64,000 nucleotides of DNA. It comes from Odiellus spinosus (lineage: Eukaryota > Arthropoda > Arachnida > Opiliones > Phalangiidae). Made by a program: the position numbers and the translations under genes. The number at the start of each line of letters is the position of its first letter. The first letter of the stretch is position 1. The notes beneath the pieces are model-generated. The model was not told the DNA's origin. It saw only the letters and a program-made list of their open reading frames with translations, and made no database searches. The stretch covers positions 11,387,602 to 11,451,601 of the forward strand of contig OY987227.1 in the NCBI GenBank assembly GCA_963920705.1, written 5' to 3'. Of the stretch, positions 38,265 to 64,000 are shown in pieces.

Positions 38265-38980
38265 GACGTCGTAAAGAGAGTGGATGTATCAGAGAGACAT
38301 TCTCATACACACACACACACACACAGATGAGAGTATAACGGAAGCTGAAGAGTATACTGCGGGCTTTAACCTAGCATCAGTCTCTTTCGATGGAGTTTTA
38401 GAAGCTAGGGAAACTATAAGGATTCCAGAAAAGTAAGAAGCGTGGGAAATGTGTTTCTGGAAATTAGCACCGGCGGCGTCGTTGCTGTTGCGCGCGAATT
38501 AGCGAATGGCCAAACAAAAAAGTGTACCCCCTTCTCTCTCTAACAACTCCCTTCCCCTATCCCTATCCAGAACTCTTACTCAGGAGAGAACCGTGGCAGA
38601 AACTCCTTAGTGACAACTTCCCTGGCGAGATTCGTTGGGCCCAGACTTTTCTCAATACCTCGGAACCCGTTAACCAAGTCCCGCGTGTACCCAACGACGT
38701 CTGCAGAGTTTAGAAAGGAACCCCCGGAAAGCGATAACCGTCCTAAAACCGCGCGAAACGAAAATTTCTCTCATTCTCTCATCTCTCTTTCTATCTCATA
38801 TCGCTTTATCCGTTTCTCCGGGACTGGGAAAATCAACGTACTTCGTTAATAAATTCAGAATTTAAAATATATATTGTGATTTTGCGTATAATTAAAACTT
38901 GGAAAATGAATTTAATTTAGTGTTAAAGTTCGGTTTTAAAAAGTTTTTAAACAAAAATACAAACAAAAACAAATTGGATT
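38265..38980 (+). promoter_or_regulatory. Promoter and 5' UTR block of sDscam-like cassette 1
   Basis: A GC- and pyrimidine-richer block lies directly upstream of the signal-peptide exon. An (AC)n run occupies 38307-38325. TCAGTC at 38377-38382 fits an arthropod initiator, with TATAC at 38353, about 26 bases upstream of the initiator A. CT-rich tracts at 38528-38560 and 38765-38800 are echoed in the equivalent block of cassette 2 (51240-51470). The start site is a proposal, and the 5' UTR could contain an intron. Confidence 0.4.
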
Positions 38981-39053
38981 ATGGATAACGTGAAGTTTTG
39001 GTGTTGGTTTTTCGCGATTCTGTTACGCGTGGCGAGATACGCGTGCGAAAAAA
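38981..39053 (+). CDS. sDscam: Cassette 1 exon 1: signal peptide
   Basis: Encodes 24 residues from ATG plus one base of the next codon, beginning MDNVKFWCWFFAILL and ending YACEK. It has a short N-terminal segment, a hydrophobic core FWCWFFAILL, and a small residue before the end (A-C) suitable for signal peptidase cleavage. The ATG has A at -3 and G at +4. The donor is AAAA|GTAAGT. Splicing to 40666 creates codon AAT and reads K-NEPKIQ. It directs the variable Ig domains into the secretory pathway, for display as a type I membrane protein. Confidence 0.75.
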
Positions 39054-40665
39054 GTAAGTTTGAATTTTATTTTAATTAGGTTTAATATTTGAATCCATTG
39101 ACTTCTAAAATTTTGAAATTAGGAATTTTTTATTTAGAAGTTCGGTATTATAATTATTTTAGATACGTTAAGAAGTTTCCAAGTATTAAGATAATCCAGA
39201 ATAATTGATAGAACATACAAAACATTTAGGTATCTTGTCTAAAGCCCCGTTTTCAATCAAGATTTTTGACGTCCAAAAAAAGTAACTTGTTTCGACGAAA
39301 AAATCTTGATTTAAAACGTGCTTTTAAATTATGTTCAAATACTGGAATTATTTTTAATTGGGTGATATTTAAAGTACTTAGAAGGTAATTAAATTTATAA
39401 TTAACTCTAGAAGAATCGTTAAGACGCAATCCTCTTTATCAAAAGATTTATAAGGACATCATAAAGGAAAAGAAAAAAAGAAATCCAATCAAAAATGACA
39501 TTCCAAAAGTATTTGGGATTGGTCGGATTTTTCCAATTTCTAAGCGAAGGAATGTTAGGAATGAATTACAGAATGTCCTTTTGCTCGAAATTGGTTGGAT
39601 AGTTTTTCCATACCAACTCAAAGATACCATTAAAAAGGCCAAAACTAACTCTAACTATAACATTCGCGTACGTATCCCAATCAGAAAATACAGTAGAAGT
39701 TTCAAACCAATGATATTATTTTATTTGAAACGAAACTCCTAACGTACCGATCTCTCTCTCTCTATAGGGTGTATATAGTTTATTTTATTACCTCCGTTCC
39801 CTCAACGTACTGGACACAACTCCCAAATATTTCTAGGATACTATTTCGTCCGTCAGTCCTATTTATAGGGCGCCTTCACAATGTTACGCTCGCACGAGAA
39901 TGGTCATAAAAGTTTGTTTTTATATTTGGTTTCATTTAAATCAAATGCTTTAAATATGCACCGTTTGATTAATGAGAAAGTGCTTCGTTGAAAAAAATTG
40001 TTGGCCATGATGAATAGCTTAATTACTTTTAAATTTGTAATTAGGCTAAAATGGTATCGCGAAAGAAATAATTAAAATTATGATTTATCGGTAATTATAA
40101 ACTTTGTTATTATTAATTTTTGCTAAAATACGTTTAAATGGATAATTAAGAGAAGTAACATCTTAATTTTATTCGATTAATAGCGTTAAATATTTATAAA
40201 AACATTAAAAACACACCAAACCTTTCTCGTTAATTTACAGTTAATTAGCGAGGTTGCATTATTAATTAATTAAAGTCTAATTTTATTTTAATACGGATAA
40301 AAAAGGGAGAAAATTTGCAACCAATTAAAGAGCGACTTAAAAACGGACTTTGTTAATTCTAAATTAAATGGTTGGTGAGTTTTAATAATTTTTTGGTCAA
40401 ATTCTATTGGAACCATTTTTGACCAAAATAGAAGATTTTTACGCTCACGCAAATGGCCTTTTACTCTACTTAATTACCCCTTTAACTTGAAATGAGATAT
40501 TGTCCGTTATTTTAAATATAAAACTCCGCTAAGCCTAACTCTTATATTTATCTCTATTCGCGCCTAATTTCTTTTCATCCATCTAAACTTAAAACTCGCG
40601 AATTTTTCTAAATTTTGTTTTTCGAAAGTTTAAAGCGAAGGCACCTTTTTATATCAACTTTTCAG
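39054..40665 (+). other. Intron 1 of cassette 1
   Basis: AT-rich, from donor GTAAGT to acceptor TATATCAACTTTTCAG. It contains a weak inverted pair near 39250-39330 (TTTTCAATCAAGATTTTT against AAAAAATCTTGATTTAAAA) and family J-like sequence near 40200-40280. No other exon seen. Confidence 0.6.
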
Positions 40666-40944
40666 ATGAACCGAAAATTCAGTCTTTCGCGTTTCCGGAA
40701 TTCGTGTTGACGGGGGAACGAACGACGGTGACGTGCAGTCTGAAATCTGGGACGGCTCCCTTCGCATTCCGGTGGTTAAAAAACGCTCACGAAATTCGCG
40801 AGACGAACGTTCAAGCCCGCGATCTCGAAGTCGAAACAGTTCTCCGAATCGAGAGCGTCACTCTAGACAATTCCGGAAATTACACGTGCATCGCCAATAA
40901 TGACTACGGAACCGATAGTCATACGGCCACGCTCAACGTCAAAG
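40666..40944 (+). CDS. sDscam: Cassette 1 exon 2: Ig1 domain (Dscam Ig7-like)
   Basis: One 279-bp exon encodes a whole I-set type Ig domain of 93 residues. Counting from NEPKIQSF, the B-strand cysteine is residue 24 (TVTCSLKSG), the core tryptophan 37 (FRWLK), and the F-strand cysteine 75 in DNSGNYTCIANN. The domain ends TLNVK. The opening PKIQ.F.FP..VL.GE is characteristic of Dscam Ig7, the exon 9-type variable domain of insects and the first Ig of chelicerate sDscam. The acceptor is CTTTTCAG| and the donor AAAG|GTAAAA. The exon is more GC-rich than its introns. It is expected to take part in homophilic recognition outside the cell. Confidence 0.88.
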
Positions 40945-42086
40945 GTAAAAATAATCACCCCGAAACTCCTCTTCACTCATTTACTGTTTAATTACGTCGC
41001 TAATTGTCCCTTAGAGCCAAAGTGGCTAATTAACTAATTACATCGATGACAAGCAGTCGGAAAAGATGCTATATACATATTAAGTCCAAATTATCTTGAA
41101 TTTACAGAGACTTCCTTTTAATTAGTATAGACCTATCCCTTCGCCATAGCTTCCCAAGTGCTGAAAAATCATACCGATTTTAGTTTCTTGATTTGACAGA
41201 ATTTACAAAACTAAGCTATATAAGTGTGTTATCTCTAATATATGTTTATTGCTACCATAAGTACAATAATTAAACCTAAGTATGCCAATAAAGATTATCC
41301 GACAAGAAGTGATTTTGACGTCGTCTGCTTATATTCTAGCGCAGCGCCCCAAGCGCCCGGCAAATATCCCTATGGGGAAGCATGGATTAATTTATAGGTG
41401 CCATAAGGATAGACAGCGCAGGAACGTCTCTTCAGCAATGAAGCTAAAAATATTCGTACCGAAGTTCTAAGCTTCAGCATCCTCTTTACCCTTCTTTAAA
41501 TGGATCAAACCTAAATGTATATAGTAATTGTCTCTGAATTTAAATTAATTATCACAATTAGCTAGAAATATGGTTTCCTACGCGGGATAAAACATTTTTC
41601 TGACTACAGGATCTCTTAAACCAAAAATAAATAAATTTGCTTAATCTGCTTTATGAATTAATATTATTATCATTATAATATCCCAAAATTTGCATTATAA
41701 ACAACTCAGTATTTAGTCAAATATTTGAATTAAAATCTAGAAAAAAAGCATTTCAGGTAATTGAAATGATTTATTGTTAAAGTAACAATTAATTTGTATT
41801 TGTAAAGTTTCCTGTTAGGCAGTGAACATTTTCCAAAAACAAATCTCGTAAAAAATGTTTTACCCCTGATCGGTATCTTTCCTTATCGCGCCAAAGTAGT
41901 TAGGTTGGAACACTTTTACAGGCGCTCAATGAAAATTGAATCAAAATAATAAACCCGTAATGCTGGCTTTGTTACCAACTAATTTGCATGGTTTACGATC
42001 CCCCCTGTTATAAAAGGGACTTTGTATATAAAAAAGTAAATATTCATTCATACGGCAGGAGATATATTTCTGTTCTATAAGGATTA

Positions 42087-42467
42087 AAAGGGATAACGAA
42101 AACGAGTTACACGTTATTTATAATCGATTAGAAGTGTTAAAATACGCATAAAACATAAAAACTCACTAAACAATTATAGTTAATTTAGAATTAATTAACA
42201 AAGTTTAGATTTCCATTTTCATACAATTTGACAATTAAAACAAATGTTACCAACTCGCGGTTAATCAAAGAGCGTTATTGGGGTTCGGTTGACAAGATTA
42301 GACAAGATATTTCAAGATAGGCTTAGCAGAGATAAATAGCTACTTTGGGTTAATTAACTCTAAATGGACGAAAAACCTCTGGTGAGTTTTAATATCGTTT
42401 TTATGAATATATTAACTTTCCTAATCGATAAAAAATATCGTGTTATATAAGTCTTCAATATCCCTTT
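42087..42467 (+). mobile_element. Family J element
   Basis: Inverted ends AAAGGGATAACGAAAAC and TTCAATATCCCTTT, with GTTAATTTAGAATTAATTAACAAAGTTT inside. Related copies at 34203, about 49540-50013 and 55815-56160. Confidence 0.55.
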
Positions 42468-44239
42468 GACAGAACCCGCAAAGCTAGAATACCCTTTATC
42501 TTTATAATTTGATAACTTGTAGATAAAGGTTGTTTAGCTTTGCACATACTGCCAACTCGAGGTGTAATGAAATATGTAGGAATTTACAAATAACGCGGAT
42601 TGATGAGTAATATTAAATGAGATTGCAAAAAAGTAGTCATTGTCAAAATCATCTTGAACACGAGTATATTTAATTTAAAAACCCATTTTCACATACGAGA
42701 CTTATAAGTTTATGAAATATATAAACCTTATAAATTTATTCAATATAAGAATTTAATCCCATAGCTTTTCTTCCTAAGGATTAAGATGGAACAAATAGCG
42801 TGGAAAAGATCCCCGTCCCTTTCCAGTCCTCGTTAGTCTTAATATCTGAGCCAATAACACTAAGCTGGGTGAAGATGAAAACCCAATAGGAGAGCTTTGA
42901 AACTCTCCAGCTTTATAACAAGCATTGGTTCAAAGAAATTGAACGAACATAGTTTATCCTTTGATGTAGAAACAATAAAGTAAAATATGTTTTAAAGGAA
43001 TACTTAAATGTTACTATAAGTATTTTTTTATTTCGGGCCATGCGGACATAAAAACAACAGAATCCGTTGAAAATTTCGGGTCTAAGTAAGATACTAAAGT
43101 TTAAGTCGCTATTTCAAAGAAAAAAATTTGAATTAAACTTCGTGACCAACTAAGGCGTTTTGTTAATTTATGCGTAATAGAGAAGAATCTTGGTATTGGT
43201 GAGGGTCCTATCTGAAGGGCGTGCCTTGACGAAGAGGAAACTTAATCTCACGATCTTTGTATGTTAACTACCAGGCGCAAAGGTTTGGGCATCTAGGTAT
43301 GTATCAAATAAAAACCTATGAGTTTTCTGACATCCTGGTGAAGCAAATTCTTCGCTTCATCACCGAAATCGGACTTTTCAAGTCTTCTTTATAGCTTTTC
43401 ATCCCTTTTTCTCATTTAAAAAATTGTAAAAACCTCTTTCACCACAATATTACTCTCTATAGCGCGTGAATTATCAAGCGCCGTCATTGGTCAAGGAGAT
43501 TAAATGAAGATAAAAATAAATTATCGTATCTTAAAAAAGGTGATTTTGTTAAAATTACAACGGATATGGAAAGTTTTATGTACAAAGATTAAAAAAAAAG
43601 AAAATTTAAGCGTTTAAGTATCCCTTTAAAAGCGTCTCTTCCCACTGACGGCTTTCACTTCATTGCCTCTATAGTAGTGGATAGAAAAAGTCTCGGCATG
43701 AAGGAGAGGCTGTAGCATCAATGGGGGTCCCGAAATGTAAACTTATCCCCGCTCGCGTTGTACTTTAATTCCCGTTCGCGTCTGAATCTCTTGATTTATT
43801 TAAAAGAACGAGTTTTTGCTCCTCATCCTCGCGAGAAGATGGAGAGCAAAAAAATGTATTTTTTCATTTTCTCTCCTTCCGAAGATGGGCTGTCTTAAAT
43901 AATATAGAGGGTCTTAAATCAACTCTACATTAATCTTTAATTATCATGGCGGGCTATCTATTTCGAGGTATACGTATACGACGAGAGAGGCGCCGCGACC
44001 GCCCATTCTCCTAAATATCTTTGGTTGAATAATGGAACATCCATCGATATTTTAGAGGAAGGGATAGAGAGGAAGGTCCCTTTCAGTTTTAGAGAAAAAA
44101 CGTACGAAAAATATAAACGATACATCATTTCTAGGTTAGAGTATATATACACCTAGAACAAACTTTATACCGTGATTTTTTCTCGCTTCTACTCTTAAAA
44201 GTCTTCAAAAGGATGTGTGAAAATGAGTAGTTGAATCTT

Positions 44240-44410
44240 TTACACCAAGTCGCTATGCCTATTTAATAATGTTGATGCCAAATCGATAAGCTTAGTCGCT
44301 AAGCCTATTTCACAATGTCTAGCCAAAATCACTAAGCCTATTTTACATAATTTGGAATAAGTTGCTTTGCTTCTTTCACAATGTAAATGAATTTTCGCTA
44401 AGGCTATTTC
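44240..44410 (+). repeat. Cluster of CTAAGCCTATTT words
   Basis: Four near-copies of (A)GTCGCTAAGCCTATTTCACAATGT occur at roughly 40-60 base intervals (about 44248, 44290, 44330 and 44393), with some drift. This is a degenerate short tandem array. Confidence 0.55.
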
Positions 44411-44798
44411 TTAATATATTCACTATATTTATGACAATTTTTGACCATACAAAGACAAAATATCTTTATTTGTGTATGCTTTGACGACATAACTTATGAT
44501 AACCCGATTTCACAAAATTTGATGATCAGATCTCACTACCAGAGCTGAATTCAACGTGAAACAAATTCAAGAGTGATGCCCCCCTCGTATAGTAGTTCGG
44601 CGCAAAAGTCTTTTGTCTTTATTAATTAGGTAATTTGTAAAAAAAAGTATTTAAACGTGAGGCAGTTCGCAAATAAACTTTTTGCTAAGTTTCAATGGAT
44701 AAATCAATCTATAATGTTATTACGTTCCACAATTCCATTAGGTTTGAAACTAAACTATAAAGAATCTCTAGTAATTTATTTTCTTGGATTTGGCTTCC

Positions 44799-44825
44799 TT
44801 TTTTTTTTTTTTTTTTTTTTTTTTT
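44799..44825 (+). repeat. 27-base T tract before an Ig2 acceptor
   Basis: An uninterrupted T run ends 26 bases upstream of the acceptor AG at 44851-44852. It lies on the coding strand and could act as the polypyrimidine tract. Confidence 0.8.
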
Positions 44826-44852
44826 GGGCATCATCGAATTTCAACCGATCAG

Positions 44853-44969
44853 TTCCACCACGATGGATCGCGACACCTCGCGACCTAAATGCAGTTTTGG
44901 GGAGCAGCTTGAAAATGGCGTGTCAAGCCGAAGGAATCCCTATCCCGAACATCACGTGGATCAAAGAGA
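44853..44969 (+). CDS. sDscam: Cassette 1 exon 3: first half of Ig2 (Dscam Ig8-like)
   Basis: 117 bp, acceptor ACCGATCAG|, donor GAGA|GTAAGC. Joined to Ig1 it reads NVK-VPPRW, the usual Dscam inter-domain junction. The 39 residues carry PRW at 3-5, the B-strand cysteine at residue 24 (KMACQAEG) and the core tryptophan at 36 (NITWIKE), with a possible N-glycosylation site NIT. The domain is completed by exon 4. A split of this domain after W.KE matches the split in cassette 2, so the two are paralogous cassettes. Confidence 0.85.
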
Positions 44970-46241
44970 GTAAGCTAGCCTAATGTTCTTCAAATGTTTA
45001 TCTACTTCTCCCTCTCCCCACAACCATCTCTACCATCACCATCACAATCTTCACTCATTTTCCCCCGTCTCACTGGCCGAATATATCCCATATTACTCCC
45101 ATCATCAAAATCCCCTTCGATCTCTTATACAACCTGTAGCCATTCCTATAGCCCTACCTCAACAACCTCACCCAAAAAGAGAAACACCAAAAGGCGTCAA
45201 TAGACTTTTGGTAGAGTCTTACACGCGCGCGAGTCTATCTCTAACTCAAGCGAGGGTAGATTCGATTTTGGTGCTATGGTATAGTATTGTTAAAGGGAGA
45301 ATACAACCTAACAAGCAAGTGATTTTTTTTTATCAATTCCTTATCTTTTAAATAGGCCTAATCCACCAGAAAAAAAAAATGCAAACAAATATTAAACTAG
45401 AAATAAATTTAAAACTTACCAGAAAAATAGGCTTAGCTGGATTTATGGAGATCCTGAATTTCTTCGCATTGATGGGTCAGCAACCAATGAGCAAAGGCCG
45501 GTCGTTAAGGCGAGATCTCCATGAAACTTCCACTAATATTCGATTGGTCGCTGAATCATCAATTTAAAGAAATTCGGGATCTCCATGAATCCAACTAAGT
45601 CTATATTGATTGATTTCTAGTTCAATATTTGTTTCTAGATTTTTTCTACTGGTCGTTAAGGTCGATAAAAAATTACGTGTTAGTTATTAGGTTGCATTCT
45701 CACTGATACGAAACGGATCAATTACACCGGATTTAAAAATGAAGACTAGAAAATTATTATTTCCAAAGATGATTAAATGACCAGAAGAATTAAACCCAAG
45801 TTGGAGGCGCAAGAGCAAAAATTCGAATATTTAAGTTCCTTATAAACATCTGGTTAAATGTTTCGTAAACAATATTACTCAGAATATAAATAATTATTGA
45901 TACAAGTTTCTGATATTTTAAACATTCGTGGTAAAATTTTTGAATTTTTTATCTTAATTATTCCTTGCCCAACTTTTACGTAACTGGCCTTGATTCCGAA
46001 TCTCTCTTAAATTAAACTCTACCCCGATCCGAAACTTAATTTTGTCGTAACTTATAACTTTAAGGGAACGAGTTATCCAAAACTTCAGAAACTGATTAAT
46101 GTTTGCAATTTTTTAACATATTCTCATTAATTCGTAGGCCGATTTTGACGTCAATTTTCAAATTTTTAATACGTTTTTAATTAAAACCTGTCCAAACCCG
46201 TAACTTTTTATTTTAACGAGACTGGACCTTTGAACTCGTAG
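44970..46241 (+). other. Intron 3 of cassette 1
   Basis: 1.27 kb. It begins with a pyrimidine-rich, CCATCACC-containing stretch (44990-45180) and contains a complete family A element (45294-45703). The short frames at 44983-45351 reflect composition only. Confidence 0.6.
45294..45703 (+). mobile_element. Family A MITE in intron 3
   Basis: Ends AGGGAGAATACAACCTAAC and TTAGGTTGCATTCTCAC, preceded by TTAA (45290-45293). The interior matches the other copies (TAGGCTTAGCTGGATTTATGG, GGCGAGATCTCCATGA, TTTCTAGTTCAATATTTGTTTC). Confidence 0.75.
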
Positions 46242-46424
46242 GTGGCTTGTCGCCTGAAAATTCTAGTTCTATGATGGCCGGAGAAGGGAGGCGATCGGTA
46301 ACTGGGGGAAAAGCGGAATGGACCTTCAACAAATTGGAAAAGTCGGACGAGGGTCGCTATTTGTGCCAAGCTAGCAACGGAATCGGAAAGCCCATCAACG
46401 CCTCCTTTACCTTGGACGTATACG
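46242..46424 (+). CDS. sDscam: Cassette 1 exon 4: second half of Ig2
   Basis: 183 bp, acceptor AACTCGTAG|, donor TACG|GTAGGG. With exon 3 it completes the Ig domain: IKE-SGLSPENSSS, then LEKSDEGRYLCQASNGIGK with the F-strand cysteine and the typical D.G.Y.C motif, ending SFTLDVY. Possible N-glycosylation sites are NSS and NAS. The exon ends in phase 1 like every other junction here, as needed for splicing to a shared constant exon. Sequence after the donor stays open for a few codons, but the GTAGGG donor and the phase match support the end chosen. Confidence 0.82.
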
Positions 46425-46575
46425 GTAGGGGATTTCGATCCGTCCATATAGCCCACCCCCAATTCGTTCCCTCTATATTTAAAAGGAGAAACTAGGCCTA
46501 ATTAAATCTTCCAGCTCGGTATAAAACGGTAATCAAGCGGAAGCTTTCCTCTCTTCGAAATACTAGCTCACTCTA

Positions 46576-47171
46576 AAGCAGCCTTCACACTAGATACTTT
46601 GAAATAGTTTAGAACCGTATTCGAAGGATCAAATTGTTCAATTTTGGAGATCAATCGTATCATAAGTTAATTACTAACTATTCCCTGTAAGTTTAACAGC
46701 CGCGTTCAATTTAAAGCAGCCAGCAATTTATACCACGTCCTTAAAAAAATGGCGATATATACGCAACGCGCCGTGAACTAAATTCAAATTCAAAAAGTAG
46801 GTTTCAAAAGCTAACTTCATACCATCAATGGTTTCCAATGTAACCAGTTAAATAATTCAATTTCTCAAAATTTGTAAACCATAATAAATTATAATAATAT
46901 TAAAATAATTTACGAGACTGTTCCTTTTTAACAGAAACAGTTTATTAGATAAATGTTTATTTAATGAAAGTTTTCTCTTAAATTCCATACAGTAGCAGTC
47001 TCAAAAATTATTTTAATATTTTTAATTATTATAATTAATTCCATATTTTGTCAAACAATCTCTAAAGTTGACCTTACTAATTTCTATATTTTGACATTTC
47101 AAAAATGGCTAAAAATGGTTTCAAAATCTCTAGTACGAACGTGGCTATCGTGTCTAATGTGAACGTTGCTT
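46576..47171. mobile_element. Family K element with inverted ends
   Basis: Left end AAGCAGCCTTCACACTAGATACTTTGAAAT pairs with right end TTTCAAAATCTC...GTGTCTAATGTGAACGTTGCTT. About 600 bp, no coding capacity. Related ends lie at about 8880 and 49618, and the family C copy at 61374 has similar termini. Confidence 0.6.
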
Positions 47172-48119: not shown

Positions 48120-48190
48120 ATTTTTAGATACGTTTTTGGTGTTTAAAAATTCAAAAGCTGTTCCATTTTTAGCTCCAAGTTTCCCATTAA
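48120..48190 (+). repeat. Repeat family G fragment
   Basis: AATTTTTAGATACGTTTTTGGTGTTTAAA followed by AAAAGCTGTTCCATTTTTAGC, shared with 12960, 28971 and 63760. Confidence 0.55.
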
Positions 48191-50013: not shown

Positions 50014-50929
50014 TAAATAGATTAATATTAATGTCTACTTTATATAGTTATAAGTGGAAATCTAGAAGAAGGATCTTCCATCTACGTAACTATACGTTTG
50101 AACCTAACAGCCCGAGGTCATACGTTATATAATGATGGTTTTTGACACACAAACTCTAGAAATACCATATCCATAAGTGGAGAAAAATTGAACAACGAAA
50201 ACCATTACTTTCGCGCAACGTTTTGGCGAAGCATTTGGCCCACACGCATTCCTATTGGTCAAAAAATGTTTGTTTCTCGATTTGGAAAAAAACAAAAAGC
50301 ATAGGAAAAAAAATATAAAACCCCCAAGATATACGTTCGGGTGATTTTTCGAAGCAGGTGGCTAGGCAATATTTCGTCGGAATTCTATACATCGAAAGCT
50401 AGATTTCCATATCCGATAGATAAAAGCAAAGAAAATTTTAAAGCTTAGTGTATAAATTTTTTGAATCCTTTTTCAATGATCTTTCCGAAAATGCTACTCA
50501 ATTTCCATTTGGAGTTCATGAAAAACCCGTAACAACTTCACTTTAAAGTCGGAGTGAAGAGAAAATTAGACTACTAAAAAAAAATGTTTTTCTGAAATTG
50601 GAATTGAATTGAAAATAGTCCCTTCCACCAATGAAAAAAAGGTCTCGTCCCGTCATAATCATAGTTAAAATTTTCACACGGGCACATTCACCCTTATATT
50701 TAACTTAAACCAAAGGGGTGAGATCTTGTAATTGGTCGGATGAGATATCAAAATCAAAATATTTTCCAATTTTTTACACAAGTCAGATACATTTTCCGAA
50801 TGTTTTATCACACAAAGAAATTCTTACGTTTATTAGCTGAATTGATTAAAAATAGAATTTCTTATTCACCCTCCCTTTAAAGGTAAACATAAACAGAGTT
50901 GGAACTGAAAGGTTGCGCAGATAAACATT

Positions 50930-51833
50930 TATGAAAACGCGGTTTAAACGTCTCCGATGAAGCGAAATGTACGTGGCTACGTGAAGGGGGAGGTAACGAG
51001 GGTGGGCGATGGTGGGCAAGAAAGAAACTGCGGGGGCTATAGCCCTTAGTGCGCGCTAGGCGTGAAAATGGGCCGCCGGACGCGCCTTCTATACTATACA
51101 CAACACGAAGCACCACGCGAGCCAAAACAACCGAAGCAACCAAAATAATGTTGCGACGAGGCGAGCTTAGGTCTTCGGGCATCGCGGCCCCGCGATTCTT
51201 TTACTAAGCATTCTAGCATTCTAGTATTGAAAAGGATTGGTAGAAAAACGAACGAAACATTTGCTCTCTAGCTCTCTTCGCGTTCTTTGCTCTCTGCCGA
51301 ATACTTCTCCCTCCATCCTTTTAGTCTTCTCTCGAAGTCGTGTATCTCGATTTTTCTTGTTTTCTTCGTCAAATTCCCGAAGAGGCCGCGAGAACCGAGC
51401 GCTCTTTCTCTGTCTCTCTCTCTCTCTATCTTTCTCTCTCCTCGCGTTTCCTCTTTTCCGGGATACACAGAGCTACTTTTGCCTTTTTAAGAAACGGTCG
51501 CGCTCTTTTCTCAAAAGTCGAATCTCGAAATTCGTTCACAATCCCAAGATTCAACAGATTTCTTACGCGGTGTAATGACGCTTGGTGCGGGCATTGTATT
51601 CGCGATTTCATCTCTATAAGAGAGACGTTAATACTCCGTTAATATCTAGTGATGTCAGCGAAAAGTATTTTATCTTCTTAAAACTCAAATAATCTTCGTT
51701 TTGGATAAAATATATATTGAGATATGTTTTTTTACATTTTTAAATAAACCAATGAGGAACAGCTGTCGGTTCTAATTAACGTTTAATAAGACGTACTCAA
51801 AACATATCAACAGTAAAAACGTACAAAAACAAG
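50930..51833 (+). promoter_or_regulatory. Promoter and 5' UTR block of sDscam-like cassette 2
   Basis: A GC-richer block (50930-51200) is followed by a CT-rich block (51260-51470, including a (CT)n run at about 51409-51430) and an AT-rich leader up to the ATG at 51834. It lies in the same position relative to the signal exon as the block before cassette 1. No unambiguous initiator or TATA box could be chosen. Open frames on both strands in this block (50877-51642) are treated as products of the biased composition. Confidence 0.4.
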
Positions 51834-51909
51834 ATGAAAATTTATTACGCTCGTGTTATTGTGATGCCATTCATATTGGGACAATTTTTTCACGGATTAC
51901 TTTGCGCTG
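51834..51909 (+). CDS. sDscam: Cassette 2 exon 1: signal peptide
   Basis: 25 residues plus one base, from ATG with A at -3. Begins MKIYYARVIVMPFILG and ends GLLCA. It has a basic/polar N-terminal segment with a lysine and an arginine, a hydrophobic core VIVMPFILG, and C-A at the end as a cleavage region. Donor GCTG|GTAAGA. Joined to 53362 it reads LLCA-DEPKIQ. The sequence is unrelated to the signal peptide of cassette 1 beyond general character, as expected of independent first exons driven by separate promoters. Confidence 0.78.
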
Positions 51910-53361
51910 GTAAGAATATATTTGCGTTTAAAAATTAGGTTAAGACATTATACTGCAGATTTTTGTAATAACCATGAAACTTTTACATATTTCCACTTAA
52001 ATTTATTACGGTAATTTTAAATTTTAATTAATATCACTCTTTAAACTAGGAAGTGAATAATTATTTTAATATTAATCGCGTAAACTTGCCAAATTAATAA
52101 TTTTAATTCAATCTCTTAAATAATAATTAAATTAATATATTAATAATATATTTTAAAAGTCAATGGTTTAAAAATCTGGAGTTTTGAATATTAATTTACA
52201 CTGATTGCAATGAGATTCAAACAAATACCCGGTATTTAAACGTTAACTAGAGCTCTAACTATACTAATATTTATGATTTTAGTAAATTTTATAAACAGAT
52301 AAATCGACAATTCATTATTTCTATCTTCAAATTTTTAGCTAAGTGTGAGAAATAAAAGTTAATTACTAATATTATAAAGATAATGCACTCGAATTTCTAA
52401 ACATACGTTCACAATGTATTAAATTTTGAAACCGTTTCGAATACTGCGTTTTAGTTTTACTAAAAAATAATTTAGTTTTCAAATTAAAAAACCAGGAAAA
52501 TGACGCTTTCTTAAAATGCTCATAACTTTTCTCCGCGACTTCCTAGGCAAAAACCGATTGCACCATTGCAAAGTAGACATTCCTTAGATTATTTTAAAAT
52601 AATAAAATTCTGTTTCGCCACTTGAAAAAGATGTTTCGCAAATCGATAGAAATCGAGCAAAAAGTTCAAACATTACCCCTTTATTAAAATAGTCATATCT
52701 TTTCTCTGCGACTTCCTAGGCATAAACCGATGTACCATTACAAAGTAGACACTCCTTAGATTATTTTAAAATAATAAAATTCTGTTTCGCCACTCGATAG
52801 AAATCGAGGAAAAAGTTCAAAAATTACCCCTTTAATAAAATGGTCATATCTTTTCTCTACAACTTCCTAGGCATAAACCAATTGCTCTATTATAAAGAAG
52901 ACATTCGCCACTAGAAAAAGATGTTTCGCCACTCGATAGAAATGGTGCAAAAAATCCAAAAATTATCCCTTTCTTAAATGGTTATAACTTTTTTCTACGA
53001 CCTCCTAGGCATAAATCGATTGCACCATTACACAGTAGACATTTCTTACATTATTTTAAAATAATAAAATTCTGTTTCTCCAATTGAAAAAAAAATGTTT
53101 CGAAACTCGATAGAAATCGAGGAAAACCATATGGAATTTGAAGCTTATTTGATCCGATAAGTTAATTTACAAGAGTTTTAAACTGCTTTTCAAAACGGTT
53201 TCAATGACAATGTATTGTGATAATAATTAGCTATTAACTCTCTAGCAAGCATATACGTCTCAATGCAATCGGAAACTAAAACTGTCTCGAATAGTTTTAG
53301 TTCAATTTCAAAAATTGCGGCTACTCCGAAACGTCAATGTTTTTCTTTCAAAAAAATCTAG
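51910..53361 (+). other. Intron 1 of cassette 2
   Basis: 1.45 kb, AT-rich. More than 40 percent of it is a tandem satellite (52511-53130). The acceptor CAAAAAAATCTAG is poor in pyrimidines next to the AG, unlike the one in cassette 1. Confidence 0.65.
52511..53130 (+). repeat. Tandem satellite, about four units of 140-175 bp
   Basis: Units start near 52511, 52684, 52835 and 52974 with TTAAAATGNTCATANCTTTTCTC. Each contains GACTTCCTAGGCATAAACCG, ATTGCACCATTACAAAGTAGACA and TTATTTTAAAATAATAAAATTCTG, then TCGATAGAAATCGAG. The third unit lacks part of the interior. An inverted, diverged two-unit array of the same family lies at 62570-62925. Confidence 0.85.
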
Positions 53362-53661
53362 ACGAGCCCAAAATCCAGCCTTTCAATTTCCCGCCGTTCG
53401 TTCTGGCGGGCGAGAAAGCGACGGTGACGTGCTCCGTCAAATCGGGCAGCGGACCGCTCACTTTCACTTGGCTGAAAGAAGGACGGCAACTAGGATCCGA
53501 ACAACGATCGGATTCCGACAGAGGAATCAAAATCACAAACTTGGACGAAGTGACCATCATCAAAATCGAGGACGCCAACGCCCTCAGCTCCGGAAACTAC
53601 ACGTGCCTCGTTTCCAACGCCCAGGGGAGCGACAGCTACTCGGCCCTTCTTCTAGTTAAAG
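53362..53661 (+). CDS. sDscam: Cassette 2 exon 2: Ig1 domain (Dscam Ig7-like)
   Basis: A 300-bp exon encoding a whole Ig domain of 100 residues. Counting from DEPKIQPF, cysteines are at 24 (ATVTCSVKSG) and 82 (SSGNYTCLVSN), with tryptophan at 37 (FTWLKEG) and the end LLLVK. It shares PKIQ.F.FP.FVL.GE.TVTC and SGNYTC with the cassette 1 exon. The main difference is a longer D-E region (residues 42-60), the part of Dscam Ig7 that tends to vary. Acceptor ATCTAG|, donor AAAG|GTAAGA. Codon use is GC-rich compared with the flanks. Confidence 0.9.
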
Positions 53662-55814: not shown

Positions 55815-56160
55815 AAAGGGATAATGAAAACGTTAAATTATAAGTAAAAATATTAATAAAATTCAAAAAATAATTCTCCTTAATTCACAATTAATTAACA
55901 AAGTTTCATTTGAGTTCGCTAAGCCTATTTTCATTTTCACATTGATAAAAACACGAATATAATAATTAATTTGGGATATTGAAAGAACTTATAATAATTA
56001 ATTTTACTTGAATTAATAATAATAGTAATTTTAAAATAATTGAGTTGTAGATTTTTAAGAGTTGGAAAATATAGTAAAGTTTAGCGGTCTCAAATCGTAG
56101 CTTCGTTAACTAGTTGCGAATTAATTAGAAACGCACTTTACTAGTCTTAATTATCCCTTT
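55815..56160 (+). mobile_element. Family J element
   Basis: Ends AAAGGGATAATGAAAACG and GTCTTAATTATCCCTTT are inverted. The interior has CACAATTAATTAACAAAGTTTC and CGCTAAGCCTATTTTC. About 346 bp, no coding capacity. Confidence 0.65.
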
Positions 56161-56389
56161 AAATTTTATTTACACGGAAATTAGGAAGAACTATAATTTT
56201 ATTTTGCGTATGTAAAAGCCATAAATGCAAGCGAGGGAATATTCATGTCGCAGATCACGATGAAACTGACCATATGGGTCGTAATTCTTTACGAGTTTGC
56301 TAAATTTGTGAAATAAAAAGTCAAGCTCAGCCTAATTTTAACAGAATTTAAAGCACACTATGAAAAAAGGGGGTACATAATTTTGTCTC

Positions 56390-56612
56390 GATTGCGTTCT
56401 AAAAATTGAATCAACTGTAAGCTCTACAACAGCCACGCGATCAAAGTGATGACGTATTAATACATGAATTTTAATTTTAAAAATTTCGAAAATACATATT
56501 TTTTCTGTCGCGGCAAATTATTTAAGTATTTTTAATTTGTTCAACGATTCATCCGAAAATGCTACTCGATTTCCAAGAAAACCTTGACAGCCTCACTTTA
56601 AAGTAAGCGGGA
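56390..56612 (-). repeat. Repeat family B, minus-strand part copy
   Basis: Reverse complement of family B: AATCAACTGTAAGCTCTACAACAGCCACGCGATC..GTGATGACGT ... CCGAAAATGCTACTCGATTTCC ... CTTGACAGCCTCACTTTAAAG. Confidence 0.65.
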
Positions 56613-57336
56613 ATGGCCGGAGAATCGTGTAAGCCTAATGACGACACTACATGCAGGTGTCTCTGGTTTCTTCCACTTCATTGGGTCTAAACCTTAAAGA
56701 GTTTAAACCATAACTCTAAAGAGAGTTATAGAATCAATTCAGGTGGGAATTTTTAACAATACAACCGTTCGCGCCTGCTTAGAATCCATAATTTCCCAAC
56801 AAATAATAAATATAGAAAGCGATTCTATAGACCAAGGCTTAGCTCGCCAAAAGTTTTGTAGTTTCGGAACGAGCGCTATATTCATTAATAGCTTAACTGA
56901 CCCGAGGATTTAAGGGCCGTAAATTAAACGAGGAACTTTGGACGTATACTCGAAAGGCGGGGGTTTGAAATGTGTTTATCGAATAAGGATGAAAATACCT
57001 CCCTAGCGTATAAGATGGTCTCCAAAATATGGTAACTTATTACCCGGTACTAAATTATAAGTGTTGTTAGGTTACGAGTAACCATCAGCTTCAGTGTCAA
57101 GTTGATTTGGTTTAGTTATATACGTATATAACAACTTAGCACATTCTTGATGAATGATATTTCCTTTCGATTAAGCCTCGGCCTCGTCTCTTTCCCTGGC
57201 AAGCTTTGTATACGTCTTGCAAAGGTCTAGCTCTTATGCAAAGTTTGTTCATAGGGTACCAACGAATAAGGTTCAATGTCGAAGGGGTTGGATTTGTAAA
57301 GGTCATGTCTCGTGAAAAGAACATTGTAATAAGATG

Positions 57337-57625
57337 GTTGTCTTAAAGTGAAGTCACGGATTTTTCATGAACTTCAAATTAAATTTGAGTATCATTTTCA
57401 GAAAATATATATGTAAATGTCGTAGAAAAAATGCTTCAATAGTAAAAATATATAATATTTTATAATCGCTATTTTCAAAATTTTTAAAATAAAAATTCCC
57501 CGCAATATTACGTCATCAATATGGTCGCTTGGCTATTGTAGAGCCTTCAGTTGATTCTCGCGCGTTACGGCACGTGATAAGGTCGCTTTCACGCGGTATT
57601 TTTTCGTAAAAAATACTTAATCTAA
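57337..57625 (+). repeat. Repeat family B, plus-strand part copy
   Basis: TCTTAAAGTGAAGTCACGGATTTTTCATGAAC ... AATATTACGTCATCAATATGGTCGC ... GGCTATTGTAGAGCCTTCAG ... GATAAGGTCGCTTTCACGCG, parallel to 26592-26870. Confidence 0.7.
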
Positions 57626-59389
57626 AAAGATCTACATTTCACACAATAATATACGTTAACTACACGAATTTTTAGTTTCATCCTCTCTTTATCCTCAATC
57701 GAAAGAAAATTTTATATTCTTTCCCGTAAGATATTTTTTTACTTGTGCTATTAAACGCTTATAAGAAAGAAAATGTCCATTAAGTATTTAGGAGAACATA
57801 AAGAGCTACAATTTGGAAATTTCTTATCGATTGGGGTTAAGGATCAAAATCGACCATAAACAGGAACGTGTACGGATATACGAATCGTTAAATTTGGCAA
57901 AAAGAATTTTTCTTTGAAACTAATCCATTTGATCGATTTAAATCGTAACATGTGAATACCTAAATAAGTATTTATTTCCTTACCATGACTACAAACATGT
58001 AGAAAATCACAGAAAATCCTTGTTTACAATCAAAATATAACGACTAAAAAGTATCAGGAAGTAATACTAATTAATTAATAATAAGAAGAACAATTAATAA
58101 TATGAAGTAAGTAGTTCAAATTAATTTCAATTAAAAATAAATAAAATTAAGAATTTGGACAAAAAACAACTAAGCTTTCTTAATAGTATTTGGCCCCAAA
58201 AAACTTTAAAATTAAGTATTTCAAAAAGGTGAAAAACCTGCAGTTTTAAAGTCTCTAGCGCATCAACCATTGTTATATTTTCCTTTACCGGGCCTTAACA
58301 TCTTATTCTTATCCCTTCCGTTAACTCGGCTTAATTCGGCTTTGTTTCTTGTCTGAATTTTAGTTTTGTATACATCAACTTATATTAAAGAGAATGAATT
58401 GAACAAAGTTCATTCAACTCCGCCCTTTCTCTCCCATTTCTCGGTAAGGGATCGAGTTTGGTTGGTCCGAGACTCCGAGAACATCGCGTGCTATAAGGAC
58501 TATATCCAAAGGAGAAGGGACGGGACCCCGCTTGAATTGATAACAGTATGTTTTGGAGAAAGCCCGCGCGTCAAAGCAAAGCAAAGCGTAGCGAAACTAA
58601 GAAAGGCAAAAGCGCGGGAAAAGGGGGGGGGGGGATGCTAGGAATTACCAAGGCGGTAAATTTATGCGGAGAATTTCAACTTATAAGTATAAAATGATGA
58701 AGAGCGAATCGGAGATAGATTTAGCCTGATTTATTTACGAGCGCGTGTACGAGAGATCGTAATTCTTCGAGTAACATATTCTATTACTTAGCTAAATCGT
58801 TAAATAAGAATTTCTACGAGGCTATATATTTCAAGAATTTAAATCTAAATTTAAAAGGAGTTTCCACTGTTTTATCGTAATTAATATTAAATTTAAAGTA
58901 TGCTGAATTAATGTACTACGAATTAATATTGGTAGGGAGTGTGTGAAATATTAATATTGGTCAAATCCTTAAGGGTATAAAACTATTAAATTTTTCGTTT
59001 TTAGTCACCATTTTCTTATGGATTTTAATTCAACTATTTCAAATTATATTCTAAATTTTGTATATTTCGCGCGAAAATTAAGCAACAAATGCAAATATTC
59101 CCCTATCAGTTAGACTTTACCCTGAACACCAAAGCTAAGAGGTTGGAACACTTTTACAGGCTTTAAATAAAAATATTCCACAAATATTTTACAAAAAATA
59201 CTCTTCTTAATAAATTCGCGAGCTACTTTTTGGTCCAATAGGGGTATACTTTAAAAAGCATTTAATTATATGTATATTTTAATCACCACCAAGTGGCAGA
59301 TCACTTCCACGATTAAATACTGCTCGATTAATCAATATTATCAAATTATCGAATACCAGTGCATTGATTTTTTTTGGTTTAAATCAGAT

Positions 59390-59750
59390 TAAAGATAACA
59401 TGCAACCTATAAAGTTATTTTTCATCGATTCCTTATCGTTTAAATCGGTCTAACCCACCATTAAAATATTTACAAACAAATATTAAATTAGAAATAAATT
59501 GAAAACTTACTTTTAAAATAATCTTAGCTGGATTTCATGGAGATCCTGAATTTCTTCGCGTTGATTGGTAAGCGACCAATGAGCAACGGTCCGTCGTTAA
59601 GGCGAGATCTCAACGAGACTTTAAATATAATTAAATTGGTCGCTGACCCATCATTGCGAAGAAATTTAAGATCTCCATTAATCCAGCTAAGCCTATTTTC
59701 CTGTTAAGTTTTAAATTTATTTCTAGTTTAATATTTGTTTGTAATTTTAA
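59390..59750 (+). mobile_element. Family A MITE, right end eroded
   Basis: Left end TTAAAGATAACATGCAACCT, then TCATCGATTCCTTATCGTTTAAAT, AATCTTAGCTGGATTTCATGG, GGCGAGATCTCAACGAGA, ATCCAGCTAAGCCTATTTTCC. It stops at the TTTGTTTGTAATTTT block without the terminal ATTCTCCCT. Confidence 0.7.
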
Positions 59751-60152
59751 TTCTTAAACAACAAAGACCTAAATAGTCACGTTCATTTAAAATTATATGG
59801 TTCTACGAAAAATATTAAAAATAGATATAATTTTCTAAGATCATTTTGAATAACTACAGGTAAATGCGTAATCCTATTAAAAATAAAACTACTTAGTGCT
59901 TCGTCAACTGTACCGTAATGAGTTACAGCCTCAGAAAATTTATAAATACATATTATAAAAACGTGCTTTCCTGAAGAAATTAGGTCACTTTCAAGGTTGT
60001 AACTGCTTCTCACAAAATTCTAATTTAAAACAACATATAACGGGTATATGATAAATTCCATGTAGAAAGATAATTATTCAAAACTAACCAGAACTACGTA
60101 AGGGGTACATTTACAACATATATATTTAATTTTCTTTTTCCGTTTCAAATAG

Positions 60153-60272
60153 CCGCTCCCCGTTGGGTGACGAAACCGGAGGAACAGAAAGTTCACAGCG
60201 GTCGAACAGCAACGCTCAGATGCAGAGCCGATGGAAACCCGAAACCCTCGATCACGTGGTTGAAAGAAACGG
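60153..60272 (+). CDS. sDscam: Cassette 2 exon 3: first half of Ig2 (Dscam Ig8-like)
   Basis: 120 bp encoding 40 residues, acceptor CGTTTCAAATAG| preceded by a TTTTCTTTTTCCG tract, donor ACGG|GTAAGG. Joined to Ig1 it reads LLVK-AAPRWVTKP. PRW is at residues 3-5, the B-strand cysteine at 24 (TLRCRADGN), and the core tryptophan at 36 (SITWLKET). Length, phase and split point match the cassette 1 exon at 44853-44969. Its continuation, with the D.G.Y.C motif, was not found before the window end. Confidence 0.86.
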
Positions 60273-61373
60273 GTAAGGGATTTAACCAAGCCTTATATCT
60301 CTATTTTCTAACGAGAAAGAGGCAATAGAATGAAAAGCACTAGAGAAAGAGACTTACTACAGTTCTCTTTATTGCCTCTAATCTCACGAACCCAGGGCCA
60401 GGAAGGGTAATAACCCCTTATATATATATGAAAATCAGAGAGAAAATCCTACACCTTAAACTGATATAAATCAATTCAAACATTCAATAATATTTTTGGG
60501 AATGGAATTTGAAAGGTTCACTCTCTTTTCATAATGCACCATAGTTACGTTGATAATTTCGAAACTGACTTCTCTGATTACTAATTTTTCTCATTAACTA
60601 TATAAAGAGTTCGCTATAAATTTGACAGCGAGTACAAAGCTACTTTACGAGTAATTTAGATATTTATTTACTTGGAGATATAAAAGTGCGTAGCTTCGCT
60701 TGTGCTGCGGCAAAATAAGGTGACATATGCAATCATCTTTGGAACAATTAACAATCTTGAACTTTAATTATCTTATGGCAGTTACAAGTTTGAAAGACCT
60801 TATTTTTGCATTATTTTTGAACAGCATCGCTGTCGCTATTTGGCAGCGATTTAAAGAAAACGGTAGTCAAGCTGAGATAGATATTACTACCTCTTTGAAA
60901 ATCAATTAAGAATGAAGAGAGATTAGAAGAAAGTCTATATGCATTGCTTTGTGTTTAGTACAATTTTAAATAGAAATACGGCAATTAAACCCATAGATGC
61001 GAATTAGATTAAAACTACGCCTATAAAACTGTGGGATTAAAGCTTCGAACGTATCGTATTCTCGCGTTGAAATTATCTTCAGACCTTAATCTGTCCCGTC
61101 AGTCGCAGAATTCATCGGGTATAGGAGTGTATCGCTATTTAATCGAACCTAGAAATTCAATTCAACGCGCGGGGATAGAGATTAACGCGGTGTCTTCCAT
61201 GTATCCTATTAATGGGATGGGCTCATTGGCTCTCTTTCCTTAAAGGGAAACTATACCACGAGCTGGTCTTAATTTAAATTGGGTCAAAAACAATCGGGAA
61301 GGAAAGCCTAAAAGAGACGGGATAAATAATACCAAAAATTCATAACAGTTTGCGGAAAGTTCTAAGCAAACTT

Positions 61374-61700
61374 AATAGCCGCGTTCATACTCGGCCTTGG
61401 AATCGATTTAAACCAGTTTAAAACGTTTCGCTAGAGTCGTGTGAACAGGAAACCGTCTTTTCTCGAATGGGTATGATTCGATTTCTCGAAACTGCTTCGG
61501 GAACCAGTTTCATACCGATTCGGTTTCAACAGCCGATAGATGAAGCTACAACAAAACGATTTATAAAGACAGGCTTAAAATGATTTCTATAGCGATATTA
61601 AAGTTGTCAAAATATTCAATTATTATAACTTGAATAATTGATTTGAACAATCAAAACATTTTGAAAACTATTTTTTAAGTGCTTAGTGTGAACGTAGCTT
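61374..61700 (+). mobile_element. Family C element with inverted ends
   Basis: Left end AATAGCCGCGTTCATACTCGG pairs loosely with right end GCTTAGTGTGAACGTAGCTT. The interior is nearly identical to 16733-16916 (AACAGGAAACCGTC, GGGAACCAGTTTCATACCG). These ends resemble those of family K. Confidence 0.7.
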
Positions 61701-62569
61701 AATACAAATGGGCTCAAAATAGCGTGGAGGTATCCCTTTAACTCATTTACGCGGTACAGAAAACGGAGTCTACACAGCGCGAGGGAGGGAAAATTGCTCC
61801 TCCAAATTCGGTTAAAACTAATTTGGGACCCAAGAATCGATCGCGAAGAGGAGCTAGCTTCTACAGGGGTTTGGAGGAATATAGGTTTAGGTTCTATATA
61901 AGCAAAGGCGTTTGTAGAGGGATATGGTCGTGTTAGCTAAGGGTATTCGGGAATGCCCAAAATGCTAATAAGCGAAGGCAGGCCGGTTTCGGAAGAGATT
62001 TTGACTAATTGAGCGAATTATATTAATAGAGAAAACGCTGATAGTGAAAATTCCTGGTTCGATCTTCTCCAATTTCTCTCTTTTAGGCCTTAAACATTTT
62101 ACGCCGAAGTTACTCGAAGCGTGATATATAATTTTAAACGCTAAGCCATAGAATGTTTATACCAGAAATTTTATCTCCCTCGGGATATGTTGTGTCACCC
62201 AAAATACCAATTTCCCTGATGGCAAAGTCTAACTTGTTCGAAATCGAAACTTTCGTCAACTTGGAAAATATGAGATTAGATAAGTCAATATTATTGCCAA
62301 TCCAATATTTTAGATCATTCCGTTATAATTAGATTTAATTTCAATCAATTTAATTGTTTCTGGATTAATAAATTAAATATTTTAAAATTTGGTATAAAAT
62401 AGGCTAAAATTCATTACCGTACAAAATTTGTTAAATATAAAGATAATTAGATTTAATTTGAAAGTAATGGTTCTATTATAAAACATCAATTCTTGCTAAA
62501 AGATAACACGAATGTGATAAGTTATAACGTTATAATCTCCAAAACATAATGAAGCTCTCTGTTCTCACT

Positions 62570-62925
62570 TTGAAATTGCTCAATTCGTATCTAGTGTCGA
62601 GGCATCTTTTCGAGTGGCTCATGTCAATTTTTTTATTCTAAAATCTACGGAATGTGTTCTTTCTAATGGTGCAATCAGTTTTGGCCTAGGTAATTGTAGT
62701 GAAAAATTACGGTCTTTTCAAGATAGGGGTCAATTCTGTACTTTTGCTCAATTTGTATCCAGTGGCGAGGCATCTTTTTCGTGTAGCTCATGTCTATTTT
62801 ATTATTATAAATGTATCCACGGAATATCTATTTTCTAACGGTGCAATCAGTTTTGGTCTAGGAGATGGTAGTGAAACATTATGGCCATTTCCAAGATAGG
62901 GGTTATTTGTGGACTTTTGACGGCT
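62570..62925 (-). repeat. Two-unit tandem repeat, inverted relative of the 52.5-kb satellite
   Basis: Units begin near 62578 and 62746 (period about 168): GCTCAATTnGTATCnAGTGnCGAGG, then GGTGCAATCAGTTTTGGNCTAGG and CAAGATAGGGGT. Read on the minus strand, it aligns with the 52511-53130 units (TAGGCnnAAACNGATTGCACCnTTA and the TTATTnTnAAATAATA-type block). Confidence 0.75.
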
Positions 62926-63744
62926 GTTTTTAAAATTGAGATCAAATGTAGGCCTATGTTATAAAATCTGGGTCCTATAATAAAATTACAAAACAAACCA
63001 CACCAAACTTCCGAATTACGCGCGCAATAACGATGAATTGTCTGTGTTACAATGACACAAATCTTTATGTTTATCGCTCTCGTCACCAATCAAATTTATT
63101 AACGACTAAAGTTGTACGGTCATTTATTCAGAACCGACTGAGATTTAGGCTTAATGATTGTTTAAAAGCAAACGAGGGCAAACTATAAAATCAGAACGAC
63201 TGTATATTCAAGCGAGGTTCATCCATGACACGCGGTGAAGAATATCATAAAAGACAGGAGGATAAACGTAACAACCTGATAGTGAACCTGAGGACGGCCA
63301 AAGTATATTTATACTTGGATTATATAATATGGTCCCTTCTTACCCCTTTGAAACCTAAATTTAAACACGTACTCCATAGTGAACTATCTAAATTCTGAAG
63401 GACCAAGCGTGAGCGGAGGTTTAGATAACAACGTAGTTTTCATTCCCTCCTCCCCTAAAGTCCTCATCGACCCTTTCTCGTATCTCTCAAAACTATACTA
63501 GTTACGTCCACCGTGCTTCGATGAATATGTATCTTGCGAAAGTATCAAGAACAAATTTATGAAATACGAGAAATATACAAAGTTCGGGATCTAAATTTTG
63601 GAAATTGGTAAATTACTCGAGGTATGATTGACCTACGCTGAAATTAAAACTTAACCCAACTGCAGAATTTAAACTGTACACTAAAATATCGTCTAACAAA
63701 ACAGCTTTCTGAATTTATTTTCGGAAACACCATGCCAAACAAAA

Positions 63745-64000
63745 ATACTAGAATTGTTTGGGAATATTTAGACACGTTTTTGGTGTTTAAATTAATTTCG
63801 GAAGTTAGGTAATTTCTAACATTAAAAGAATAGGCAGGCGTTAGATGCCTAAGACCTTGGCCGTCAAACGTCGGCCTATTCTTTTAATGTTAAGACATTA
63901 CAAGCACATGCTGAAGGCTGAAATATAATGATTGGCCAGAATTTAATTTACTTTTTTATTTCAAATTTTACCAAACTTCAGAAATTAATTTTAACACCAA
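63745..64000 (+). mobile_element. Family G element with a central palindrome, reaching the window end
   Basis: TTTAGACACGTTTTTGGTGTTTAAATTAATTTCGGAAGTT at the left. A central palindrome (63818-63891) pairs AACATTAAAAGAATAGGC with GCCTATTCTTTTAATGTT. The right side ends CCAAACTTCAGAAATTAATTTTAACACCAA, the inverse of the left part. The element therefore has inverted ends and probably closes at or just beyond 64000. Confidence 0.7.

Follow-up and report, generated by a model that had tools for sequence, protein, structure and literature searches.

Does a stretch of arachnid DNA in which two immunoglobulin (Ig) cassettes follow each other belong to a single gene, and is each cassette transcribed from a start of its own? 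The stretch, referred to here as the window, is 64,000 nucleotides of Odiellus spinosus (G000:C3:11,387,602-11,451,601, in a 443-Mb assembly), and an earlier note, made from the letters only, took its cassettes to be of the shortened Dscam (sDscam) type. Very likely the window carries the 5' variable region of a gene of the sDscam-beta group, 124 kb or more in length, in which three widely spaced cassettes with their own promoters would be spliced to a constant Ig3 exon. Contig C3 was followed downstream to 11,640,500, with 253 kb scanned in total; subtracting 11,387,601 converts C3 coordinates to window numbering (Table 1).

Cassettes and constant region of the window gene

A common constant region downstream, on which the earlier note had made its reading depend, was found, and all three cassettes join it in frame: each, when linked to Ig3 through its phase-1 donor, gives 317-321 codons with no stop. 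The search of the flanks that the note proposed also produced a third cassette, which begins 10 kb beyond the window end with its own leader exon, besides the block of Ig3, FNIII, transmembrane (TM) and tail exons. When the 253 kb were queried with the constant exons of neighbouring genes, three sets of FNIII, TM and Ig3 exons were obtained, one at the position given in Table 1 and the other two immediately following the two compact arrays described below. No constant exons were found between the cassettes of the window gene or just after cassette 3, and profiles of Ig1 and of the two halves of Ig2 (Ig2a, Ig2b) detected no more cassette exons from cassette 3 onwards to the constant region. The gene, with its three cassettes, thus begins at ~11,425,900 and reaches 11,550,069 or beyond. 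The intron leading from cassette 3 to the constant region is 57 kb long, and a long gag-pol-like open frame, recognised by eye and of the long terminal repeat (LTR) retroelement type, lies within it on the minus strand (C3:11,528,880-11,533,163).

The two cassettes that begin in the window are paralogues on the same strand, each with its own ATG, leader and Ig1, as the earlier note had stated; their Ig1 exons share 49% identity (E=2.4e-21). Its claim that exons and phases could be read from the sequence was also borne out, the introns of both cassettes being GT-AG and of phase 1, and the lengths of Ig1, Ig2a and Ig2b being multiples of three. The split Ig2 reported for each cassette is complete for cassette 1, but the Ig2b exon of cassette 2 lies outside the window. 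Throughout cassettes 1-3 all exons are open and the splice sites intact, and in-frame stops occur 33, 57 and 93 nt upstream of the respective ATG codons. One exon-1 candidate was present within 6 kb upstream of each Ig1, compared with 3 in a 54-kb control stretch; leaders (signal peptides) were assigned by hydrophobicity only. Pfam places the Ig exons of the window in I-set and Ig_3. An F-strand N-glycosylation site (N-X-S/T-C) is carried by 47 of 48 Ig1 exons of the region, including all three of the window gene, and the remaining one has NGT two residues off.

Cassettes 1-3 span 55 kb, with introns inside cassettes of up to 11.7 kb, and their Ig1 exons are 12.7 and 23.4 kb apart. This spacing far exceeds the medians of the neighbouring arrays A and B (Table 1) and would favour independent genes of the sDscam-gamma or mDscam kind, or decayed copies, over cassettes of one gene. 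Such an explanation is highly improbable: the stretches between the cassettes yielded no constant exon, the cassette exons are open with splice sites intact, and, for mDscam, the Ig1 and Ig2 profiles matched no Ig exon in the window upstream of cassette 1.

Table 1. Exons, 5' blocks and neighbouring loci of the window gene. Positions are in window numbering unless marked C3.
Feature	Position	Strand	Remarks
5' block, cassette 1	38265-38980	+	GC-richer; putative promoter/5' untranslated region (UTR); stop 33 nt before ATG
Cassette 1 exon 1, coding	38,981-39,053	+	ATG and leader, phase-1 donor; MDNVKFWCWFFAILLRVARYACEK; length 73
Cassette 1 Ig1	40,666-40,944	+	Homologue of Dscam Ig7
Cassette 1 Ig2a	44,853-44,969	+	First half of Ig2 (Dscam Ig8)
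Cassette 1 Ig2b	46,242-46,424	+	Second half of Ig2; phase-1 donor fitting constant Ig3 exon
5' block, cassette 2	50901-51833	+	GC-rich, partly CT-rich; putative promoter/5' UTR; stop 57 nt before ATG
Cassette 2 exon 1, coding	51,834-51,909	+	ATG and leader, phase-1 donor; MKIYYARVIVMPFILGQFFHGLLCA; length 76
Cassette 2 Ig1	53,362-53,661	+	
Cassette 2 Ig2a	60,153-60,272	+	First half of Ig2
Cassette 2 Ig2b	C3:11,459,534-11,459,701		Outside window; 11.7 kb after cassette 2 Ig2a
Cassette 3	C3: exon 1 11,461,743; Ig1 11,464,385; Ig2 halves 11,470,320 and 11,481,778		Outside window
Constant region	C3:11,539,472-11,550,069		Ig3, three FNIII, TM, tail; 88-98 kb past window
Array A	Downstream of window gene	Same as window gene	20 cassettes, median spacing 1,063 bp
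Array B	After array A	Same as window gene	25 cassettes, median spacing 1,169.5 bp
Locus D	C3:11,636,010 and 11,642,574		Ig1 exons; beyond array B
Array E	C3:11,743,949-11,760,811	-	25 Ig1 exons

Several repeats were seen in the window. A dispersed family of direct and inverted repeats (12145-12328, 31683-32018, 45327-45607, 59418-59748) has copies in an intron of each cassette, and four head-to-tail units of ~140-170 bp lie just upstream of the cassette 2 Ig1 exon (52497-53152). At positions 1-2147 there is an inverted repeat with arms of 727 nt, 98% complementary and spaced by 693 nt; it overlaps an open frame of 328 aa on the minus strand (680-1666) and resembles a mobile element or foldback.

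Family assignment

FNIII1-3 of the window gene match PDB chain 7Y8S best (395.8 bits, E=8e-118, 290 residues), and for the spliced Ig1-Ig2-Ig3 of cassette 1 the best match, from end to end, is 7Y6O (213.6 bits). In the available part of PMC10154414, both are scorpion structures, 7Y8S being sDscam-beta2v6 FNIII1-3 and 7Y6O sDscam-alpha25 Ig1-3. Against the sDscam-alpha7 chains 7Y5R and 7Y8H, both single domains, FNIII1-3 score 85 and 63.7 bits. Single Ig1 exons of cassettes 1-3 are less informative as queries: the top PDB match is a titin chain, its score being added up over several Ig domains; the best sDscam chains are 7Y95 (beta6v2) for cassettes 1 and 3, and 7Y6O for cassette 2. On chain 7Y6E, FNIII2-3 of the neighbouring array A score 266.5 bits and those of the window gene 252.2 bits, and since array A scores no worse, these values do not single out any one scorpion beta gene as the orthologue.

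The hand-joined protein, in which the joins after Ig3 are approximate, contains three Ig and three fn3 domains by Pfam, together with a hydrophobic segment that resembles the TM of the neighbouring gene. All three cassettes have the four-exon, Ig7-8-type structure of sDscam-beta, and the domain order of three Ig, three FNIII and a TM lacks equivalents of Dscam Ig1-6, Ig10, FNIII3-4 and FNIII6. Assignment to mDscam or sDscam-gamma was rejected, with no Ig1-6 found upstream in the window and tandem 5' cassettes present. By the features tested, the window gene is an sDscam-beta gene; shortened Dscam genes are already known from scorpions, spiders and ticks.

5' blocks and promoter choice

Each cassette of the window had been described as following a CT-rich, GC-richer 5' block. 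The GC enrichment held for both: GC content in the cassette 1 block is 0.51 and 0.45 in a pair of 250-nt bins covering -750 to -250, against a background of 0.35, and the 500-base windows at 50,901, 51,001 and 38,301 are among the five highest of 635, the other two being the cassette 2 Ig1 exon. The CT enrichment held for cassette 2, where CT reaches 0.63 at -500 to -250 from the ATG, and barely for cassette 1, whose highest value is 0.54; it did not extend to cassette 3, where the 1 kb around it gives 0.32-0.45. A common promoter sequence among the three 5' blocks was sought by blastn and discarded, the best match having an E of 0.007 over 18 nt. Among 11 promoters poor in the array element described below, these three blocks included, no k-mer exceeded shuffles.

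In the scorpion, according to the accessible text of PMC4835542, a promoter is chosen and splicing to the constant exon follows, a mode supported by 5' rapid amplification of cDNA ends, RNA-seq and reporters. A separate promoter for each cassette of the window gene is likely by analogy. As in the family, each cassette would be transcribed from its own promoter, and its last exon spliced past the downstream cassettes to the constant Ig3 exon; the products would be surface receptors whose variable Ig1 may confer isoform-specific homophilic recognition.

Alternatively, one promoter could give a long transcript in which the cassettes are used in series, yielding six or more variable Ig domains, or as exclusive internal exons in the manner of insect Dscam1. 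The frame would survive serial splicing, because each of Ig1, Ig2a and Ig2b has a length divisible by three and borders in phase 1, and the same part of PMC4835542 reports some inter-cassette splicing in scorpion genes, 10-40% of whose isoforms are non-canonical. Yet every cassette brings an ATG and a leader of its own, closely preceded by an in-frame stop, and no Ig exon was found by the Ig1 and Ig2 profiles in the window before cassette 1. We consider a single promoter highly improbable.

Four observations weigh against an sDscam-beta gene with individually started cassettes. No motif common to the 5' blocks of cassettes 1-3 was found. The splice from cassette 1 to the Ig1 of cassette 2 is itself in frame. 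The Ig1-3 comparison favours alpha25 (7Y6O), although the available part of PMC10154414 lists no beta Ig1-3 structure. Finally, in an Ig1 tree of 90 columns, which took 10 of the 25 array E cassettes and from which B_11, B_14 and B_17 were dropped beforehand, cassettes 1-3 are ungrouped, but a single clade was unrejected by the approximately unbiased (AU) test (p=0.597).

Neighbouring sDscam arrays

A genome query with the cassette 1 Ig1 gave at least 107 matching places when the best 150 of 229 candidates were scored, many of them in the 11.43-11.77 Mb part of C3. Of the 54 matches to the Ig1 profile in arrays A and B, nine proved to be pieces of Ig2; their removal leaves 45 compact cassettes. 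By the rule applied to the window cassettes, a leader exon was found for 38 of these 45 (46 of 54 before the removal). Median Ig1 identity between arrays A and B is 33%. Three cassettes of array B (C3:11,592,515, 11,594,819 and 11,597,063) have both halves of Ig2 in a single open frame, which looks like loss of the Ig2 intron.

A shared element near the putative promoters of arrays A and B

An element of ~20 nt, AGGTGGCGC(T/C)AT.G..TCcA, is carried in a single copy by 37 of the 45 compact cassettes, on the sense strand only (C3:11,554,445-11,605,656). Its exact 8-base seed, AGGTGGCG, is found 37 times in sense and 0 times in antisense in 57 kb, where 0.53 are expected per strand, and is present in 16 of the 20 cassettes of array A and 21 of the 25 of array B. 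In the 350 bases before called leader exons the corresponding figures are 13/15 and 20/23, with 0.07 and 0.14 expected. For the 33 cassettes with a called ATG, the element lies 66-277 bp before it (median 211). The seed columns are 1.0 by construction, so that the remaining columns alone are evidence; of these, +8 (0.76), +10 (0.74), +13 (0.66) and +17 (0.81) are kept across both arrays. Flanks at 20 nt or more from the element show chance identity between the arrays (0.22-0.30). With the element kept while its flanks are at chance and Ig1 is at 33%, it would be under selection or have been gained repeatedly, and we have little doubt that it is a real element, common to the two arrays and close to their putative promoters.

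The exact seed is absent from A_16, A_17, A_19, A_20, B_01 and the last three cassettes of B. An initial description of the element as absent from the cassettes next to the constant region was softened, since degenerate forms (scores 8.1-18.1) stand near the expected place in five of these eight; in A_16, A_19 and A_20 not even a degenerate form was found.

At the three cassettes of the window gene the element was rejected (0/3). The best upstream score, 6.7, belongs to cassette 2, whose score of 5.9 in another scan equals the 95th percentile of the background. Two one-mismatch words, AGGTTGCGC at window 50,910 (+), 0.9 kb before the cassette 2 ATG, and GGGTGGCGC at 34,795 (+), 4.2 kb before that of cassette 1, are two of only five such sense words in the 196 kb that lie beyond the arrays, and are too weak to use; the former is identical to the array E form. 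In array E, where 12 of the 25 cassettes were covered, none has the exact element, and seven have an altered form, GGTNNCGC, at -344 to -389 from Ig1, a distance equal to that of the element. Neither locus D nor two sampled sDscam-like loci on contig C12 has the element. The words TCGCGCCA and TTTCGCGC were also seen in array E, in 7/12 and 6/12 cassettes respectively, the latter also resembling an E2F site.

Relation of the element to CTCF

AGGTGGCGC(T/C)A fits the CTCF core, AGRKGGCRSYR, at all 11 of its positions. The genome has a CTCF-like exon (69% identity to human CTCF fingers over 151 residues, 98 bits above the next match) in which the DNA-reading parts of fingers 3-5 are nearly unchanged. 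The available portion of PMC2797089 describes the fly CTCF motif as strongly resembling that of vertebrates. In clustered protocadherins, a conserved element (CSE) with a CGCT box stands at a near-constant distance before each start codon and binds CTCF, with alpha-c2, beta1, gamma-c4 and gamma-c5 as exceptions; C-type genes are mostly without the site, and the CTCF sites of the alpha cluster are forward-oriented (PMC7811963, in the parts accessible). The distance is ~200 bp in an excerpt of PMC4978886. By this parallel, the sDscam arrays would choose their promoters through CTCF as protocadherin clusters do, by way of a sense CTCF-type site ~200 bp before the start, looping, and a random choice per allele. 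We treat this idea as tentative and rather unlikely to be correct; in the element, no 5' half of the vertebrate motif can be seen.

The element is probably something other than a CTCF site: the site of another factor, a signal at the RNA level, or an old piece of a retroelement copied along with the cassettes. Consistent with this, conservation extends beyond the CTCF-like core (columns +13, +17 and +19), array E has an altered form (0/12 exact) with locus D and the sampled C12 loci lacking the element, and the same word occurs within a repeat family and, as the sole strong reverse site in the 253 kb, 0.8 kb upstream of the retroelement-like open frame. Two of the three versions meet with difficulties. 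A simple RNA docking-selector role was rejected, as the sense strands of the two array genes contain no exact complement of the nine-base core (one-mismatch complements occur at 2 and 4 places). A passive relic is unlikely given the chance-level flanks beside the kept element, and an origin from a tRNA or Rfam family was rejected as well, with 0 such matches in the arrays. The AGGTGGCGC of PMC7883824 concerns a rice gene and is unrelated.

A genome-wide excess of related words was set aside as evidence for CTCF, being confounded by repeats: AGGTGGCGCCA occurs 725 times against 41 for the reversed word, AGGTGGCGCC 1,054 against 125, and AGGTGGCGCTA 252 against 76. Of the 176 places of CCANNAGGTGGCGCC, 100 were listed, and 86 of these read CCAAAAGG, so the excess is at least partly due to repeats. 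AGGGGGCGCTA is barely enriched (96 against 75), and AGGTCGCGCTA, a one-base change, is not (50 against 87). On contig C4, which has at least 13 AGGTGGCGCTA sites, two convergent ones (11,742,804, plus strand; 13,265,417, minus strand) flank a single cluster of ten Hox-type homeobox matches (C4:11,906,172-13,224,094), an arrangement seen after the fact. A single Hox cluster suggests a chelicerate other than the spiders, scorpions and horseshoe crabs of the sDscam surveys.

In the open-licence literature, CTCF and sDscam were found together in PMC5775551 only, whose available portion has CTCF solely in one reference title; CTCF is unmentioned in PMC4835542, in the text accessible. That portion of PMC5775551 suggests that dispersed sDscam clusters might use a mode of transcription distinct from the loop-based regulation of protocadherins. 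The place, orientation and core of the array element make the opposite view testable, and this view predicts that arrayed and lone promoters differ. If the CTCF reading were true, low-copy genes such as the window gene and some constant-adjacent cassettes would supply steadily expressed, C-type-like isoforms, and two unrelated receptor families would each have taken up one and the same chromatin device to give neurons their self-identity.

Comparison with known systems

Arrays A and B resemble clustered protocadherins in having one conserved sense element before most variable exons, ~200 bp from the start, with CGCT in most array A copies, and in that most cassettes closest to the constant region do not have the exact seed. 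The sDscam genes are, however, another receptor family, the three cassettes of the window gene are without the element, no reverse-oriented enhancer partner was found, and the CTCF sites of the arrays are putative.

The likeness to insect Dscam1 lies in the Ig domains, Ig1-Ig2 of the window gene (cassette 1) aligning with the Ig7-Ig8 part of Drosophila Dscam1 (3DMK). It differs in having no Ig1-6 equivalents upstream in the window, and diversity would come from separate starts instead of exclusive internal exons.

The closest counterparts are sDscam-beta1-6 of Mesobuthus martensii, whose cassettes, in the accessible parts of PMC4835542 and PMC5775551, consist of four exons for Ig7-8, a separate first exon included. 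As in other chelicerate sDscam-beta genes, the constant region comprises Ig9, three FNIII, a TM and a tail, and the gene is clustered with other sDscam genes; unlike them, the window gene has only three cassettes, spread over 55 kb and lying 57 kb before the constant region. An inverse relation between cassette number and size, described in the available portion of PMC5775551, fits the three giant cassettes here beside the many small ones, and a low-copy, large-cassette sDscam-beta gene next to relatives of 20 and 25 cassettes in one genome offers a natural comparison of this trade-off.

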